60,814 nucleotides of DNA, taken from Anaerolineae bacterium. GTDB lineage: Bacteria > Chloroflexota > Anaerolineae > Anaerolineales > Villigracilaceae. This document shows, piece by piece, positions 26,236 through 60,478 of the stretch. Position 1 is the stretch's first letter. Each line of letters starts with the position of its first letter. Made by a program: the position numbers and the translations under genes. The stretch is taken from assembly GCA_003130845.1 (NCBI GenBank), contig QEXW01000102.1, forward strand, positions 1-60,814, given 5' to 3'. The notes under the pieces are model-generated. The model was not told where the DNA came from, searched no databases, and worked only from the letters and a program-made list of their open reading frames with translations.

Positions 26236-26319
26236 GGGGCGATGGCGGAATCGGCAGACGCAACAGACTTAAAATCTGTCGGTGGCAACACCGTGTGGGT
26301 TCGACCCCCACTCGCCCTA
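26236..26319 (+). tRNA. tRNA-Leu (anticodon TAA)
   Basis: Full cloverleaf with a class II variable arm. The acceptor stem GGGGCGA (26236-26242) pairs with TCGCCCT (26312-26318), with a G-T first pair. The anticodon stem ACAGA/TCTGT encloses the loop CTTAAAA with TAA at 26270-26272. The variable arm is CGGTG-GCAA-CACCG, and the T arm GTGGG-TTCGACC-CCCAC. No CCA is encoded. It reads UUA and UUG leucine codons. Confidence 0.96.
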
Positions 26320-55604: not shown

Positions 55605-56435
55605 TCAAATCCACTCCGCCTTTTTTACTACATACGAATCATAAACCCGCCGCAACAAGCGCGCGATTTCTCCCACTTGCCCACTACCAACGGGTTGATT
55701 TTCAATCTGCGTCACCGGCACAACCCCGCGCCCACTTGAGGTAATAAAAGCCTCATCCCACGCCGCCAATTCATCCACACGTGGGGGACGGTATGCGATG
55801 CCGATGCCATTCGCGCGCGCCAGGCGCAGCACGTAGCGGCGCGTCACCCCGAGCAAAATCCCCTCGCGGGCAGTGAAAATCGTGCCAGCGCGGACGGCGT
55901 AGAAATTGCTCGTCAGGCCTTCGAGAATCTTGCCGTTGCGGGTCATCAGGGCTTCGTACGCGCCGCTCTGCTGCAGAAACGCCCGCGCCGCCTCACTCTC
56001 GCCGATGAAAGCGGTTGTCTTCAGGCGGGGCGTTTTGCGCTCTACCGGCGCAAACATCACCCGCACCCCGTGCTGATAGACCGTTTCATCCGGGGCGCGG
56101 AGCGGTTCGAGCGCCAGGAACAGCGTCCCGGCCTCTTGGGTGGTTGAAAGCGTCACGCGTACGCGGGCCTCTTCGGCCGGGAAAGCAGCCAGCACCTCCC
56201 GCAGCGCGGCGCGCAACCCGGCGGGGCTGGAGAGCGCCCGAATCCCCAGCGCGGGCAGCGGGGCGTACAATCGGTCCAGGTGCATTTCCAGGCCAAGCAC
56301 CTTCCTGCGCCCGGCATACGTGCGAAAGGTGGAATACAATCCTTGTGGCAACTGGCGCGAAACCGCATCCAGCGCAGAAACATCTGACAGGGCAATTTCG
56401 TGAAGGTCAGGGGTCAGCGCATATACCTTGAGCAT
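55605..56435 (-). CDS. Class IV PLP-dependent aminotransferase-fold protein
   Basis: 276 residues. The likely PLP lysine lies in PRLKTTAFIGESEAAR (about residue 138), with ALMTRNGKILEGLTSNFYAV (about residue 160) and EGILLGVTRRYVLRLA downstream, the family-typical cofactor region; EAFITSSGRGVVPVTQI closes the fold. Members include branched-chain aminotransferase, D-amino-acid aminotransferase and 4-amino-4-deoxychorismate lyase; I cannot choose. The middle of the gene is visibly richer in G and C than the genes upstream, which may mark different ancestry. The ATG is preceded by TAGAAT six bases upstream and has no ribosome-binding site, so it may be leaderless. Confidence 0.85.
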   Translation of the reverse strand: MLKVYALTPDLHEIALSDVSALDAVSRQLPQGLYSTFRTYAGRRKVLGLEMHLDRLYAPLPALGIRALSSPAGLRAALREVLAAFPAEEARVRVTLSTTQEAGTLFLALEPLRAPDETVYQHGVRVMFAPVERKTPRLKTTAFIGESEAARAFLQQSGAYEALMTRNGKILEGLTSNFYAVRAGTIFTAREGILLGVTRRYVLRLARANGIGIAYRPPRVDELAAWDEAFITSSGRGVVPVTQIENQPVGSGQVGEIARLLRRVYDSYVVKKAEWI

Positions 56436-56441
56436 AGATAC

Positions 56442-56447
56442 ATTCTA
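56442..56447 (-). promoter_or_regulatory. Candidate -10 box of the class IV aminotransferase gene
   Basis: TAGAAT on the minus strand ends six bases before the ATG, implying a leaderless message. No clear -35 box. Confidence 0.4.
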
Positions 56448-56460
56448 CCGCAAGCCAGCC

Positions 56461-56482
56461 TTTTTAGACATATATCTAAAAA
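56461..56482. promoter_or_regulatory. Inverted repeat beside the exporter promoter
   Basis: TTTTTAGA (56461-56468) and TCTAAAAA (56475-56482) form a perfect 8-bp inverted repeat just upstream of the -35 box of the exporter leader and within the region upstream of the divergent aminotransferase gene. It is a candidate operator for a repressor; none is encoded nearby. Confidence 0.45.
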
Positions 56483-56487
56483 AATCC

Positions 56488-56517
56488 TTGACAATTCAAG
56501 GAAAGCAATGATAAACT
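56488..56517 (+). promoter_or_regulatory. Promoter of the exporter leader
   Basis: TTGACA (56488-56493) is a perfect -35 box. TAAACT (56512-56517), 18 bp away and preceded by TG at 56509-56510, is an extended -10 box. Start site expected near 56524, upstream of the leader reading frame. Confidence 0.7.
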
Positions 56518-56559
56518 CGTTCGCGTTAATCTCATTCTCTCGAAAGGAGGCCGCACTTC

Positions 56560-56640
56560 ATGGTGTACAACATCGTTTCTCGTTTTGCTCCCGTTTCTGG
56601 CGTGTTTGTACGTCCTCGGAGTGCGCCTGTTGACAGATAG
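56560..56640 (+). CDS. Leader peptide of the ABC exporter operon, 26 residues
   Basis: A 26-codon frame starting MVYNIVSRFAPV and ending SAPVDR before TAG. It has the best ribosome-binding site of the region (AAAGGAGG, ending nine bases before the ATG), directly after a strong promoter and before an intrinsic terminator. Its last codons (21-25) form one arm of an alternative hairpin that excludes the terminator. The design is that of a regulatory leader peptide whose translation decides transcription of the exporter genes, like bmrB in Bacillus subtilis. The peptide itself resembles nothing I know. Confidence 0.72.
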   Translation: MVYNIVSRFAPVSGVFVRPRSAPVDR

Positions 56641-56684
56641 CCGTCAACCTCCTGTGTCTGTGTAGTTCACAAGTCACGGCGCAC
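56621..56684 (+). promoter_or_regulatory. Predicted antiterminator pairing
   Basis: GTGCGCC (56621-56627) can pair with GGCGCAC (56678-56684), and TGAC (56631-56634) with GTCA (56673-56676), a bulged 11-bp helix that uses the 5' arm and loop of the terminator. Within it GTTGAC (56629-56634) and GTCAAC (56643-56648) form a competing smaller hairpin. A ribosome paused before about codon 17 would leave the first arm free; one that reaches the stop would cover it. Confidence 0.6.
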
Positions 56685-56703
56685 CCACGCCGTGACTTTT
56701 TTT
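56671..56703 (+). terminator. Intrinsic terminator (attenuator) before the exporter genes
   Basis: AAGTCACGGCG (56671-56681) pairs perfectly with CGCCGTGACTT (56688-56698) on a 6-base loop, and seven T residues follow (56697-56703). It lies between the leader peptide and the first exporter gene, so transcription of the exporter must pass it. Confidence 0.92.
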
Positions 56704-56761
56704 ATTGTCTCTACGGCATCGCTTCTGCACATCGGAACCTGGCCATTTTATGGAGAACAGT

Positions 56762-58603
56762 ATGGCAACTCTCACATCCTCTCAACCTTCTACCTATTTC
56801 GACTTTCGCCGTGTCATCCACCATAACCGCCTGAACGGCTTATGGCAAGCGATGAGCGGCTACCGCTTGCCGTATCTCGGCGCGGTCATTACGCTCATGA
56901 TTTCTGCGCTTGCCAAAACCGCCGCGCTGTTGTTGTTGCGCTACTTTGCCGACTTAGTGGGCGGTGCAGCCCAACCTATCGGCGGAAATTTACAAAGCGC
57001 CTTCTTCTACATTGGCTTAGGATTTGTCAGTCTAGCCGCACTGGAGGGGGGATTTGCCTTCCTCTCCGGTCGCCTGGCAGCCTATACAGCAGAAAACATC
57101 ACCCGCCGCTTGCGCAACTTTTTATTCGACCACATTCAGCGCCTGAGTTTTTCCTACCACAGCAAGACGCCCACCGGTGACCTGATTGAACGAGTCACTT
57201 CGGACGTGGACACATTGCGCCGCTTCTTCAACGAGCACGCCATCGGCATCGGGCGCATCCTGCTCTTGTTCTTTGTCAACTGGTTTGCCATTCTCAGCCT
57301 CGACCTGGAACTCGGCCTGGTTTCCGTCATCGCCATTCCGCCCATTCTGCTCGTTTCGGTATGGTTCTTTAAGCGAGTGACCAAAGCCTACGAAGCCTAT
57401 CAAGAACAAGAGGCCGCGCTCTCCACCGCCTTGCAAGAAAACCTGACCGGCGTGCGCGTGGTGAAAGCCTTTGCGCGCCAGGATTACGAAAAAGGCAAGT
57501 TCGAAAAGGAAAACTGGGCCAAGTACCTGAAAGGCAAACTGCTGCTCTTCATGCACTCGCTCTTCTGGCCGCTTTCAGACATCGTGCTGGGCCTGCAAAT
57601 GCTGGGCGGGTTCGTCTTTGCGGGCGTCATGGTCATCAACGGCGAAATCACCGTTGGCACGTACCTGGCCTATGCCGGGCTGGTGGTGTGGCTCATCTGG
57701 CCGATTCGCAATCTGGGCCGCCTGATTGTAGATACTTCCACCGGCATGGTCTCCTATGGCCGCCTGCTCGCCATCATGAAAGAAAACCAGGAAGACCTAG
57801 AGAGCGGCAAAGTGCAGCCAACACAGCCGGTGCGCGGCGAAATTACGTTTGAAAACGTGTCGTTCATGTACTCCGATGGCGAAACCGATGTGTTACGGAA
57901 CGTGTCCTTTTCGGTCAAGCCGGGGCAATCGGTTGCTCTGATTGGCTCCACCGGCTCAGGCAAGACCTCGCTGGTCAACCTGCTGCCGCGCTTCCATGAG
58001 TACACCGGCGGGCGCATCCTGCTAGATGGAATTGAACTGAAAGACTACCCGCGCCGCTACCTGCGTCAGCAAATCGGCATCGTGGAACAAGAACCGTTCC
58101 TGTTCAGCCGCTCCATCCGCGAGAACATCGCGCTGGGGGTTCAGCGTCCGGTGACGGACGAGGAAATCGAAGCCGCCGCCCGCACCGCCGCCATCCACGA
58201 TTCCATTATGAGCTTTCCCGATGGCTACCGCACGATTGTCGGCGAAAAGGGCGTCACCCTCTCCGGCGGACAAAAACAGCGCGTGGCGATTGCCCGCACC
58301 ATCCTGAAGAACCCGCGCATCCTGATTTTGGATGATTCGACCTCCAGCGTGGATACCGAAACCGAAGCAGAAATCCGCGCTGCGCTGAACAACCTGATGC
58401 AAGACCGCACCACCTTCATCATCGCCCACCGCATTCAATCGGTGATGAACGCGGATTTGATTCTGGTGCTGGACAAGGGGCAGGTCATCCAGATGGGAAC
58501 GCACGAGCAACTGGTCGCCCAGGATGGCATGTACCGCAAAATTTACGATATCCAAACCCGAGTCGAGGACGAACTGGAACATGAACTCGCCTCGATTGAA
58601 TAA
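56762..58603 (+). CDS. Heterodimeric ABC exporter half, subunit with degenerate Walker B
   Basis: 613 residues from the ATG at 56762, with TGGAG six bases upstream; a frame to 56705 would start next to the terminator. Six membrane helices (about residues 50-320) precede the ATPase domain. Walker A is GSTGSGKT (395-402), signature LSGGQ (500-504). Walker B reads ILDDSTSS with Asp525 where the catalytic Glu should be, so this subunit forms the inactive half of the degenerate site, as in TM287, BmrC and LmrC-type exporters. Probable role: drug or lipid export together with the partner encoded 51 bp downstream. Confidence 0.93.
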   Translation: MATLTSSQPSTYFDFRRVIHHNRLNGLWQAMSGYRLPYLGAVITLMISALAKTAALLLLRYFADLVGGAAQPIGGNLQSAFFYIGLGFVSLAALEGGFAFLSGRLAAYTAENITRRLRNFLFDHIQRLSFSYHSKTPTGDLIERVTSDVDTLRRFFNEHAIGIGRILLLFFVNWFAILSLDLELGLVSVIAIPPILLVSVWFFKRVTKAYEAYQEQEAALSTALQENLTGVRVVKAFARQDYEKGKFEKENWAKYLKGKLLLFMHSLFWPLSDIVLGLQMLGGFVFAGVMVINGEITVGTYLAYAGLVVWLIWPIRNLGRLIVDTSTGMVSYGRLLAIMKENQEDLESGKVQPTQPVRGEITFENVSFMYSDGETDVLRNVSFSVKPGQSVALIGSTGSGKTSLVNLLPRFHEYTGGRILLDGIELKDYPRRYLRQQIGIVEQEPFLFSRSIRENIALGVQRPVTDEEIEAAARTAAIHDSIMSFPDGYRTIVGEKGVTLSGGQKQRVAIARTILKNPRILILDDSTSSVDTETEAEIRAALNNLMQDRTTFIIAHRIQSVMNADLILVLDKGQVIQMGTHEQLVAQDGMYRKIYDIQTRVEDELEHELASIE

Positions 58604-58654
58604 TCAGATGCAAATCCATTACTTCGTATTGCACCATTTTGCATGGGAGACAGT

Positions 58655-60478
58655 ATGTCTGACGAACTGTACGAACTCGAAGAAGAAGAGCATACCAGCC
58701 CGTTGACGGGGGCCACCTTTCGGCGCATTCTCGGCCTGTTGCGGCCTCACTGGCTGTGGGTGGTCGGCTTCGTCGTCACCATTGGCCTGACCTCGGCGCT
58801 GGATTCGCTCTTTACGTATATCAACAAACACATGATTGACGACGGCATGATGATGGGCGATACCGCTACGCTTTATCGGCTGGCAATCTATTACGGCGTC
58901 TTACAGCTCATTCAGGCCGGGTTGGTGTTCTCGTTCATTTACTTAGCCGGTGTGTTGGGCGAGCGCATTCAATATGACCTGCGCAAGGCCATGTTCGCCC
59001 ACCTGCAAGACCTTTCGCTCTCGTATTACGCCCAAAACGCAGTGGGGCGGCTGATGGCGCGCGTCACGTCCGATTCGGGGCGCGTGGCCGACCTGATGAC
59101 CTGGGGGCTGGTAGATACCACCTGGGCGTTCATGAACATCATCACGGCCACGTTCTTCATGCTGCTCATCAACTGGCAGCTGGCGCTGGTGGTCTTCGCT
59201 ATTGTGCCGCTCCTGTTCTACATTGCCGTGCAGTTTCGCAAGAAAATCCTGGTGGAATACCGTACGTCGCGGCGCGCCAACTCCAAAATCACCGGGGCAT
59301 ACAACGAAAATATTCAGGGTGTCCGTGTGGTGAAGGCCTTAGGACGAGAAGAAGAAAACCTACAAGAATTTCAGGTTCTGACCAACAACATGTACCGCGC
59401 TTCCTACCGCGCGGCCTGGCTTTCGGCCCTCTTCTTACCCACCGTACAGGTCATTGCAGCACTAGCGCTGGGCGTCATCGTGTGGTATGGCGGCTTCCAG
59501 GCCGAAGCCGGCCTGCTGACGATTGGCGGGATTCACGCCTTTGTCTCGTATCTCACTTTCATCATGTGGCCGGTGCAAGACCTGGCGCGCGTCTATGCCG
59601 AAATGCAGCATTCCATCGCTTCAGCCGAGCGCATCTTCAAACTGCTGGATACCGAGCCGGAAGTGCGTAACCGCCCAGGCGCAGTGGAGGCCGAAACCCT
59701 GCTGGGCGAAATCATCTTCGAGAACGTCAGTTTCTATTACGAAGAGCGCAAACCGGTGCTGACCAATTTCAACTTGCGGGTGCAGCCGGGCGAAACCATC
59801 GCCATCGTCGGGCCGACCGGCGGCGGCAAATCCACCATCGTCAACCTGCTGTGCCGCTTCTACGAACCGCGCAGCGGGCGCATCCTCATCAACGGGCGCG
59901 ATTACACCGAATACACACTACAAAGCATCCACAGCAAAATCGGCATCGTGCTGCAAACCCCGCATTTGTTCAGCGGCACAGTGCGCGAGAACATCCGCTA
60001 CGGGCGGCTTTCTGCCACCGACCAAGAAGTAGAAGAGGCGGCCAAAATCGCCGGCGCACATGATTTCATTATGACCCTTGAAAAAGGCTACGACCAGAAC
60101 GTAGGCGAAGGCGGCAACCTGCTCTCGGTGGGGCAAAAGCAACTCATCAGCCTGGCACGCGCCGTGCTGGCCAAACCGGAGCTTTTCATCATGGATGAAG
60201 CCACCTCCAGCGTGGATACACTCACCGAGGCGCTCATCCAAAAAGGCATGGAGAACCTGATGAAAGGCCGCACATCCTTCGTCATTGCCCACCGCTTAAG
60301 CACCATCAAACGCGCCGACCGAATCTTGGTCATCGAAAACGGGCGCATCGCCGAGATGGGCACCCACGCCGAGCTCTTGCGCCTACGCGGACAGTATTAC
60401 CGACTATACACCCAACAATTCAAGTTCGAGCGTGAGTTAGAATACTCCGCCGCCGCACTCGTGCCGGTGATTAAGTAG
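58655..60478 (+). CDS. Heterodimeric ABC exporter half, subunit with catalytic Glu
   Basis: 607 residues from the ATG at 58655 (GGGAGA just upstream, similar to the start of its partner gene). An acidic N-terminus (EELYEL-type run of Glu) leads into six membrane helices and the ATPase domain with Walker A GPTGGGKS (386-393) and Walker B IMDEATSS with the catalytic Glu515. Its signature is degenerate: LSVGQ (490-494) replaces LSGGQ. That signature faces the partner's Asp525 Walker B, so one ATP site is degenerate and the other consistent, the rule in heterodimeric exporters such as TM287/288 and BmrCD. Confidence 0.93.
   Translation: MSDELYELEEEEHTSPLTGATFRRILGLLRPHWLWVVGFVVTIGLTSALDSLFTYINKHMIDDGMMMGDTATLYRLAIYYGVLQLIQAGLVFSFIYLAGVLGERIQYDLRKAMFAHLQDLSLSYYAQNAVGRLMARVTSDSGRVADLMTWGLVDTTWAFMNIITATFFMLLINWQLALVVFAIVPLLFYIAVQFRKKILVEYRTSRRANSKITGAYNENIQGVRVVKALGREEENLQEFQVLTNNMYRASYRAAWLSALFLPTVQVIAALALGVIVWYGGFQAEAGLLTIGGIHAFVSYLTFIMWPVQDLARVYAEMQHSIASAERIFKLLDTEPEVRNRPGAVEAETLLGEIIFENVSFYYEERKPVLTNFNLRVQPGETIAIVGPTGGGKSTIVNLLCRFYEPRSGRILINGRDYTEYTLQSIHSKIGIVLQTPHLFSGTVRENIRYGRLSATDQEVEEAAKIAGAHDFIMTLEKGYDQNVGEGGNLLSVGQKQLISLARAVLAKPELFIMDEATSSVDTLTEALIQKGMENLMKGRTSFVIAHRLSTIKRADRILVIENGRIAEMGTHAELLRLRGQYYRLYTQQFKFERELEYSAAALVPVIK

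Follow-up and report, generated by a model that had tools for sequence, protein, structure and literature searches.

A putative ribosome-controlled transcription attenuator in front of an ABC exporter pair, and its recurrence as an RNA family in Anaerolineae

The leader region of about 180 nt in front of a pair of ABC exporter genes in the window (the whole 60,814-nt stretch of DNA that was analyzed) probably acts as a ribosome-controlled transcription attenuator. It would follow the switching order of the trp attenuator, with its sensing end located at the leader's own ribosome-binding site; we put the probability of this reading at roughly 75%. Homologous copies of the element precede genes of at least seven types, and one RNA family appears to wire a ribosome-stress regulon, with copies in front of resistance and ribosome-care genes.

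Leader region and exporter pair

The leader region lies on the plus strand, between a divergent ORF on the minus strand (55605–56435) and the exporter genes. Its promoter (56488–56517), as read directly from the sequence, consists of a −35 box TTGACA (56488–56493) and a −10 box TAAACT (56512–56517) separated by an 18-nt spacer, and agrees with the consensus at 10 of 12 positions. A ribosome-binding site, AAAGGAGG (56543–56550), also a direct read, whose columns are conserved in the exporter alignment A1 described below, precedes a leader ORF of 26 codons, MVYNIVSRFAPVSGVFVRPRSAPVDR, plus TAG (56560–56640; ATG at 56560, TAG at 56638–56640), which is supported by frame conservation and dN/dS. 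Farther downstream, the terminator scan and covariation identify a predicted intrinsic terminator (56671–56705), with an 11-bp stem (arms 56671–56681 and 56688–56698), the 6-nt loop CACCCA, and a T tract of seven T at 56697–56703, the first two of which lie within the stem.

Several segments of this region can pair with one another. E1, GGCCGCACTTC (56549–56559), is located between the Shine-Dalgarno (SD) sequence and the start codon, as indicated by pairing scores, covariation and folding. E2, GGAGTGCGCC (56618–56627), covers codons 20–23 (R-S-A-P) and can take either E1 or E3 as its partner. E3, GGCGCAC (56678–56684), is part of the terminator, where it extends from the 5′ arm into the loop, and is the partner of E2 in the putative antiterminator, while the 3′ arm of the terminator constitutes E4. 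In the window, CGCACTTC of E1 pairs with GGAGTGCG of E2 (8 bp), and GG pairs on past a one-base bulge. The initial annotation, which was made from the sequence alone, had proposed an alternative pairing of 7+4 bp between leader and terminator. Both parts are present in the window, with GTGCGCC (56621–56627) facing GGCGCAC (56678–56684) in the 7-bp block and TGAC (56631–56634) facing GTCA (56673–56676) in the additional 4 bp. However, the conserved part is the 7-bp block; the leader-side bases of the extra 4 bp also make a conserved hairpin, P2 (GTTGAC-AGATAGCC-GTCAAC, 56629–56648; fold and covariation), which holds the leader stop codon in its loop. This stop codon is 10 nt past the E2 core in the window, and 10 or 13 nt past it in most copies. 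Three features go beyond what had been annotated: the E1:E2 pairing, by which the leader's ribosome site would be hidden; the P2 hairpin; and the recurrence before many other genes.

The leader fold is more stable than its shuffled versions (z = −3.6; 0 of 200 shuffles as stable). By itself, a terminator scan of the sequence does not rise above chance (3 sites, compared to a shuffle mean of 3.0), while the same scan finds 3 promoter-like sites against 0.7 in shuffles. The element is nevertheless judged to be real, since the decisive evidence is conservation and not the terminator scan alone. An Rfam scan of the whole window gave a tRNA (26236–26319) as its sole match, and Rfam 15 gave three chance-level matches at 56400–56800 (best E = 4.5), all far below the gathering scores. 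The leader peptide has no second match in the window's own genome. A 7-bp palindrome with a 4-nt loop (TCCTTGACAATTCAAGGA, 56485–56502) overlaps the −35 box and could be an operator; by eye, it is missing from the nearest homologue (L002).

The genes that follow encode the first half (56762–58603, plus strand, 613 residues) and the second half (58643–60478, plus strand, 611 residues) of an ABC exporter, both of which fall in the ABCB-type exporter superfamily according to similarity and profile searches. By eye, the Walker B motif of the first half, LILDDSTSSVD, has an aspartate for the catalytic glutamate, while the second half has the Walker B motif LFIMDEATSSVD with the glutamate and the signature LSVGQ. 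Aspartate in place of the Walker B glutamate in one half only is a mark of heterodimeric exporters with a degenerate site. The two adjacent halves bear the marks of such a heterodimeric exporter, with one degenerate ATP site, in agreement with the initial annotation. Among half-size exporters of solved structure, TM_0288, 5mkk, 6raf and Sav1866 rank high for both halves; we take entries 5mkk and 6raf to be TmrAB. The second half also matches YheH (BmrD) with an E-value of 4e-104. None of the 25 best NCBIfam models for each half reaches its cut-off.

Conservation of the leader frame and of the pairings

A search for the exporter in 101 related genomes, the window's own among them, gave 71 loci, or 70 after L031, a duplicate of L001, had been dropped. 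The promoter, the 26-codon frame and the 11-bp terminator with its seven T hold at the coordinates first annotated, and the block recurs in 52 of the 70 orthologous loci, according to a pattern that requires an SD sequence and a start codon, with an ORF that extends across the core GTGCGCC or a near variant of it. The 18 loci without the element by this pattern include L038, which covariance model R1 (see below) does match, and L046, which is truncated by the end of its contig; most of the others belong to more distant exporters. At the corresponding place in 46 of the 52 loci, there is a TTGAC(N) box followed 17–18 nt downstream by a −10-like hexamer. One frame through E2 is shared by 50 of the 52 exporter leaders, the exceptions being L029 and L056, and P-x-R-S-A-P-V-D-R is the end of many of them. 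The leader of L029 has its frame shifted against E2; the stop of the usual frame is lost, and another in the new frame lies close to its position.

The leader frame that had been proposed from the window is borne out in the wider family as well. Across the copies preceding exporters, GNAT acetyltransferases and MFS pumps, the same frame through E2 is kept in 114 of 116 copies; the start-to-E2 distance in these classes takes 17 different values, 15 of which are in one frame. In contrast, the non-coding spacer between E2 and the terminator, which serves as a control, spreads evenly over the three frames (39/39/38). Counted from the first base of the E2 core, the stop codon begins 14–21 nt downstream in 128 of 138 copies. 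This distance is kept by all 9 RsgA copies and by 6 of the 7 DrrA-like copies, several of them in other frames: five of the nine RsgA leaders read E2 in another frame, mostly as W-A-R-L, and three of the seven DrrA-like leaders read it in the third frame, as Y-C-A-C. Since the classes read E2 in different frames but keep the stop, it is the place of the stop, and not the peptide end, that they share. A ribosome ending at this conserved stop would cover E2. As far as sequence can tell, the conservation of the frame, together with an SD sequence that is conserved in most copies, indicates that the leader ORF is translated. RsgA-class leaders such as those of L170, L180 and L184, in which E2 is read as A-W-A-R-L, have V-rich N-terminal parts such as ASVVVQV.

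The pairings were assessed in alignment A1, which consists of 39 of the 52 exporter elements; the other 13, mostly long or divergent, were left out (L025, L027, L033, L040, L047, L050, L052, L056, L058, L062, L063, L068 and L069). P2 and the terminator together have 90 cells with changes on both sides, compared to a shuffle mean of 28. All 7 pairs of the P2 consensus helix change on both sides, with 81% of cells paired, while P2 is weaker in the wider sets (61% and 63% of cells paired). In the E1:E2 helix, 89.1% of cells pair, compared to 85.9% in shuffles and 27–53% when the helix is slid, and 11 cells change on both sides, compared to 4.3 in shuffles. The antiterminator helix E2:E3 is compatible with A1, but nearly invariant and hence not informative there: 91.0% of cells are paired against 90.6% in shuffles, with 91 of 500 shuffles as high, and 72–76% of cells still pair when the helix is slid by 2 columns. 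In A2, an alignment of 101 rows that was fitted to the structure, E1:E2 is paired in 92.8% of cells, with both-side changes at 6 of 7 pairs. A2, and hence the covariance model R2 built from it, includes one spurious antisense row (L150:341–446).

Throughout the family, E1 between the SD sequence and the start codon reads GGCGCACTTC or a variant, which is complementary to E2, while E3, which sits in the 5′ arm of the terminator and often also in its loop (GGYGCACTCC), is complementary to the same E2. A swap test, which requires no structural alignment, compared the best helix that each E2 forms with its own E1 or E3 to those formed with the E1 or E3 of other copies. Among 138 copies, the scores were 21.3 (own) and 18.5 (swapped) for E1:E2, and 18.9 and 17.3 for E2:E3, with 0 of 5000 permutations, which keep the common descent of the copies in, reaching the observed mean in either case. 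The covariation of the antiterminator, which A1 was too invariant to reveal, is thus seen in the wider family. In the 41 copies with an E2 other than GTGCGCC, the difference is larger, with own scores of 20.4 and 18.7 against swapped scores of 16.0 and 15.3. Among 34 copies from other orders, the corresponding values are 18.0 against 16.1 for E1:E2 and 19.9 against 17.3 for E2:E3 (0 of 5000 permutations each). Despite the relatedness of the copies, several different compensated E2 states are present, such as GTGCGTC, TTGCGCC, GCGCGCC and GTTTGCC. Compensated variants include L218 (E2 GGAGTTTGCCTG with E3 TGGGCAAACTCC), L131 (E2 GTGCGTCT with E1 AGACGCAC) and L179 (14 bp).

The set of 138 comprises 89 + 49 copies, from which L050 (a duplicate), L033 and L047 (terminator badly placed by the finder), 11 of the 101 A2 rows without a recognized leader, and L157 without a recognized terminator had been dropped. 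Likewise, 6 of the 40 rows of the other-order alignment, A3, without a recognized leader were dropped to give the set of 34. E1 is poor or absent in L013, L019 and L020. Taken together, the comparisons show the anatomy of the element and its conservation, the covariation of E1:E2, P2, the terminator and E2:E3, and the constancy of the leader frame and stop position.

In six copies (L194, L281, L283, L192, L183 and L222), the leader starts about 7–9 nt after a −10-like box, without an SD sequence or E1. These leaders look leaderless; by eye, the copies retain E2, the stop and the terminator, and five of the six precede ABC-F genes.

Proposed switch and competing readings

In attenuators of the trp type, element 1 can pair with 2, 2 with 3, and 3 with 4; expression is off without translation or with a ribosome at the stop over element 2, and on when the ribosome is held over element 1. 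The element described here would share with them both the order E1:E2, E2:E3, E3:E4 and the on/off logic. It differs in that its element 1 lies at the leader start, rather than at regulatory codons near the leader end, in that no codon is repeated, and in that the genes under its control would encode resistance and ribosome factors.

As long as the leader carries no ribosome, E1 would pair with E2 first, because E1 and E2 are made first; the leader start would be hidden, the E3:E4 terminator would form, and the exporter would be off. During normal translation, the ribosome would reach the stop codon, where its footprint would cover E2, so that the terminator would again form and the exporter stay off. 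A ribosome held at the start codon or at early codons would instead cover E1 and leave E2 free to pair with E3 before E4 is made, thereby blocking the terminator and allowing transcription of the exporter. What the switch responds to is probably early translation that is slowed or arrested, for example by ribosome-targeting antibiotics; it is the nature of the downstream genes that points to ribosome-targeting inhibitors. We infer this order of events, the signal, and the working of the terminator and antiterminator in the cell.

The folding of partial transcripts is consistent with the induced state. With the start region masked and before E4 is made, the E2 core is predicted to pair with E3 (at least 4 pairs expected) in 132 of 138 copies, compared to 121 of 552 folds with a shuffled E2. 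A ribosome mask at the stop reduces E2:E3 to 1 of 138, a result that is nearly built in, as the mask covers most of E2. Without a ribosome, and also before E4, the equilibrium fold has E1:E2 (at least 4 pairs) in 51 of 138 copies and E2:E3 in 67 of 138. This mixed state means that the off state without ribosomes would have to rest on kinetics, and it is the least certain step of the switch. Once E4 is included, the terminator is on average the prevailing structure in each of the three states (mean of 8.9–10.3 E3:E4 pairs), and antitermination must therefore be kinetic as well.

Drug-specific sensing by the N-terminal part of the leader peptide would be a refinement of this RNA switch, not an alternative to it. 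Arrest at about codons 7–11, with motifs such as IFVP, FIP or MTP before the exporter, would give each copy its own antibiotic response. Proline occurs within codons 8–12 in 31 of 49 exporter leaders, compared to 6 of 49 for codons 2–6, and the leader part before E2 is under mild constraint, with a dN/dS of 0.59 in 20 pairs of copies. However, the proline may be due to shared descent, and this part differs greatly in both length and sequence, among leaders of one gene class as well as from class to class, which leaves such sensing possible but doubtful. By eye, the proline often follows I, V, F or T. The N-terminal motifs IFVP and SVVV are, we presume, similar to motifs of Erm leaders.

The conservation of R-S-A-P was at first taken as the mark of a regulatory nascent peptide, whose C-terminal ...R-S-A-P-V-D-R would arrest the ribosome alone or together with a drug, as RAPP or RAPG does, and so set the switch. 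R-S-A-P-like ends recur in many leaders, AGA codons preserve the arginine in L063, L155 and L215, and arrest peptides of the RAPP kind are known, as described in the accessible parts of two reports (PMC10951233, PMC10987492). What set this reading back is that the S-A-P codons are E2 and the V-D-R codons are the P2 stem, such that RNA pairing can explain their conservation, and that the RsgA and DrrA-like leaders mentioned above, as well as L029, read E2 in other frames while keeping E2 and the stop position. The arginine is also replaced by W (L007), T (L248), L (L207), Q (L241) or C (L214), and a RAPP or RAPG C-terminus is not found in the window, which has R-S-A-P-V, RAPG being present in L052 alone among the exporter leaders listed. 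Furthermore, arrest at A-P would place the ribosome over E2 and favor the terminator, which is the wrong direction for induction. We consider C-terminal arrest improbable. Because the reading frame across this RNA element differs from one gene class to another, RNA pairing rather than the peptide can explain the conserved leader end, and the element offers a clean case of this explanation for a conserved leader-peptide end.

A riboswitch-like RNA that binds a ligand or protein, and in which the ORF is incidental, would account for a conserved structure with a terminator, but it is very unlikely given a frame that is kept through indels next to a frameless spacer, SD and stop positions that are conserved in most copies, and the lack of any Rfam family in the window element. 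Amino-acid attenuation through uncharged tRNA, as in the trp or his operons, would explain alternative hairpins in the same order and can be set aside almost entirely, as no single-codon run stands out in the leaders listed and the genes are exporters, acetyltransferases and ribosome factors rather than biosynthetic enzymes.

The ribosome-controlled attenuator favored here was likened in the initial annotation to bmrB-bmrCD of Bacillus subtilis. In that system, the promoter is under the control of AbrB. According to the accessible part of the report on that system, its terminator lies inside a 53-codon leader ORF, and it is induced by 50S-targeting drugs, including lincomycin, erythromycin and chloramphenicol, with leader translation needed (PMC4191407). 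The resemblance holds for the design, as both would have a translated leader ORF (predicted here), alternative terminator, antiterminator and predicted anti-antiterminator structures, and a multidrug ABC exporter pair. It does not extend to the position of the terminator, whose arms (56671–56698) lie past the stop codon of the 26-codon ORF, and not within the coding region as in bmrB. The present element also belongs to another phylum, has as its E1 the spacer of the leader's ribosome site, and is a member of an RNA family common to many gene types.

A ribosome held at the start codon of an upstream ORF, as proposed here, has a parallel in toiL-topAI of Escherichia coli. In the available portion of that study, the upstream ORF senses several classes of ribosome inhibitors, with start-codon arrest by tetracycline and, by the paper's reasoning, by retapamulin (PMC12121999). 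toiL acts on translation start and Rho-dependent termination, as far as the same portion describes it, whereas an intrinsic terminator and an antiterminator would be used here.

Distribution of the element and the genes behind it

R1, a covariance model built from the exporter-leader element, matches in 77 of the 101 relatives. A single genome has as many as 6 copies, while the window's own genome gives one match. Across the phylum, R1 matches 34 of 400 genomes; the near-restriction to one order that this implied was overturned by R2, which matches 168 of 396 genomes of the class Anaerolineae. Outside the window's order, R2 matches 134 of about 359 genomes of the class, and across the phylum 40 of 400 genomes, three of them outside the class.

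One hundred further copies were taken for analysis of the downstream genes, leaving out 14 weak R1 matches (E-values, which are rough for these models, of 2e-4 to 4e-3) and exporter-linked matches in genomes first met in the R1 search of the phylum. Genes were labeled by the best BLAST label among the first two downstream ORFs. The copies precede GNAT acetyltransferases (50), ABC exporters (15), DrrA-like ABC ATPases (10), RsgA (9), MFS pumps (5), ABC-F proteins (4), RIO kinases (2) and an RNHCP protein (1), with no label in 4. Among these four, L153 is followed by a GNAT gene by Pfam, and the third ORF of L202 encodes an exporter; L201 is truncated where its contig ends, and the gene after L176 carries no label. 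Representatives agree with the labels in that RsgA passes NCBIfam and Pfam, while RIO, GNAT and MFS proteins pass Pfam. Three ABC-F proteins score 455, 435 and 439 bits against an NCBIfam cut-off of 380 for a ribosomal-protection-like family. The DrrA-like ATPases fall below the NCBIfam cut-off for DrrA (e.g. 260 against 312).

A second set consists of 40 of the best R2 matches outside the window's order, without three second matches of genomes already sampled and without G218. These copies precede DrrA-like ATPases (10), GNAT acetyltransferases (7), ABC exporters (7), ABC-F proteins (4), RIO kinases (3) and RsgA (3), with six unlabeled. Two of the six (L237, L262) have GNAT genes by Pfam, L245 starts with an ABC-2 permease, L238 has an RtcB gene in second place (see below), and in L240 and L246 the contig ends early. 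The labeled gene is sometimes the second ORF: in L247, a GNAT gene precedes that for ABC-F, and in L244, the GNAT gene comes after one for a HAD hydrolase. At ten weaker places (rough E-values of 3e-6 to 3e-4), including the three outside the class, the first ORF encodes a GNAT, DrrA-like, RIO or ABC-F protein in nine, and the tenth, L280, lies near a contig border. The gene labels were made from the first hundred copies themselves, and the 50 later loci are independent of that choice.

From this distribution, we think it rather likely that Anaerolineae, with outliers in other Chloroflexota, run much of their response to ribosome stress and drugs by one family of RNA attenuators that reads ribosome occupancy at the leader start, with no transcription factor shared among the genes. 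Each gene behind a copy, whether for an exporter, MFS pump, GNAT acetyltransferase, ABC-F protein, RsgA or RIO kinase, would be switched on locally. If so, the regulon would be wired like the T-box regulon, with the ribosome as the ligand. The WhiB7 regulon of mycobacteria (PMC10727445), a joint response to ribosome-targeting drugs of the kind proposed here, runs through one transcription factor. In the present case, each transcription unit would instead have a cis RNA element of its own, with no protein in common.

Leader-ORF attenuators of resistance genes have usually been described gene by gene, whereas here a single homologous element serves many gene types, in a class known largely from metagenome assemblies. 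The genes behind the element, such as those for GNAT acetyltransferases and RIO kinases, are candidate resistance or ribosome-rescue factors. Among the matches listed in a search of the Chloroflexota and Anaerolineae literature on leader peptides, attenuation, antitermination and RNA motifs, no such element appears in the titles and abstract beginnings, a scope that excludes most subscription papers and bioRxiv preprints. Nor is it mentioned in the passages located in two surveys, of which one has no occurrence of Chloroflex- in its main text (PMC2965389) and the other names Chloroflexi-1 and pan only (PMC2864571). As far as the literature searched reaches, attenuation by a leader ORF is a known kind of control, and the gene-spanning family, the design of E1 and the phylum are new.

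A few copies have features of their own. In L181, L192 and L268, the element is followed by a second terminator-like, GC-rich inverted repeat that is similar to the first. L238, from another order, has an RtcB RNA ligase gene as its second downstream ORF, which would fit a response to ribosome damage. L275 lies in a 13.7-Mb genome outside the class (G446), before a GNAT gene, and has GTGCGTCC in the place of E2 matched by GGACGCAC in the place of E1; transfer or a wider distribution of the element are both possible.
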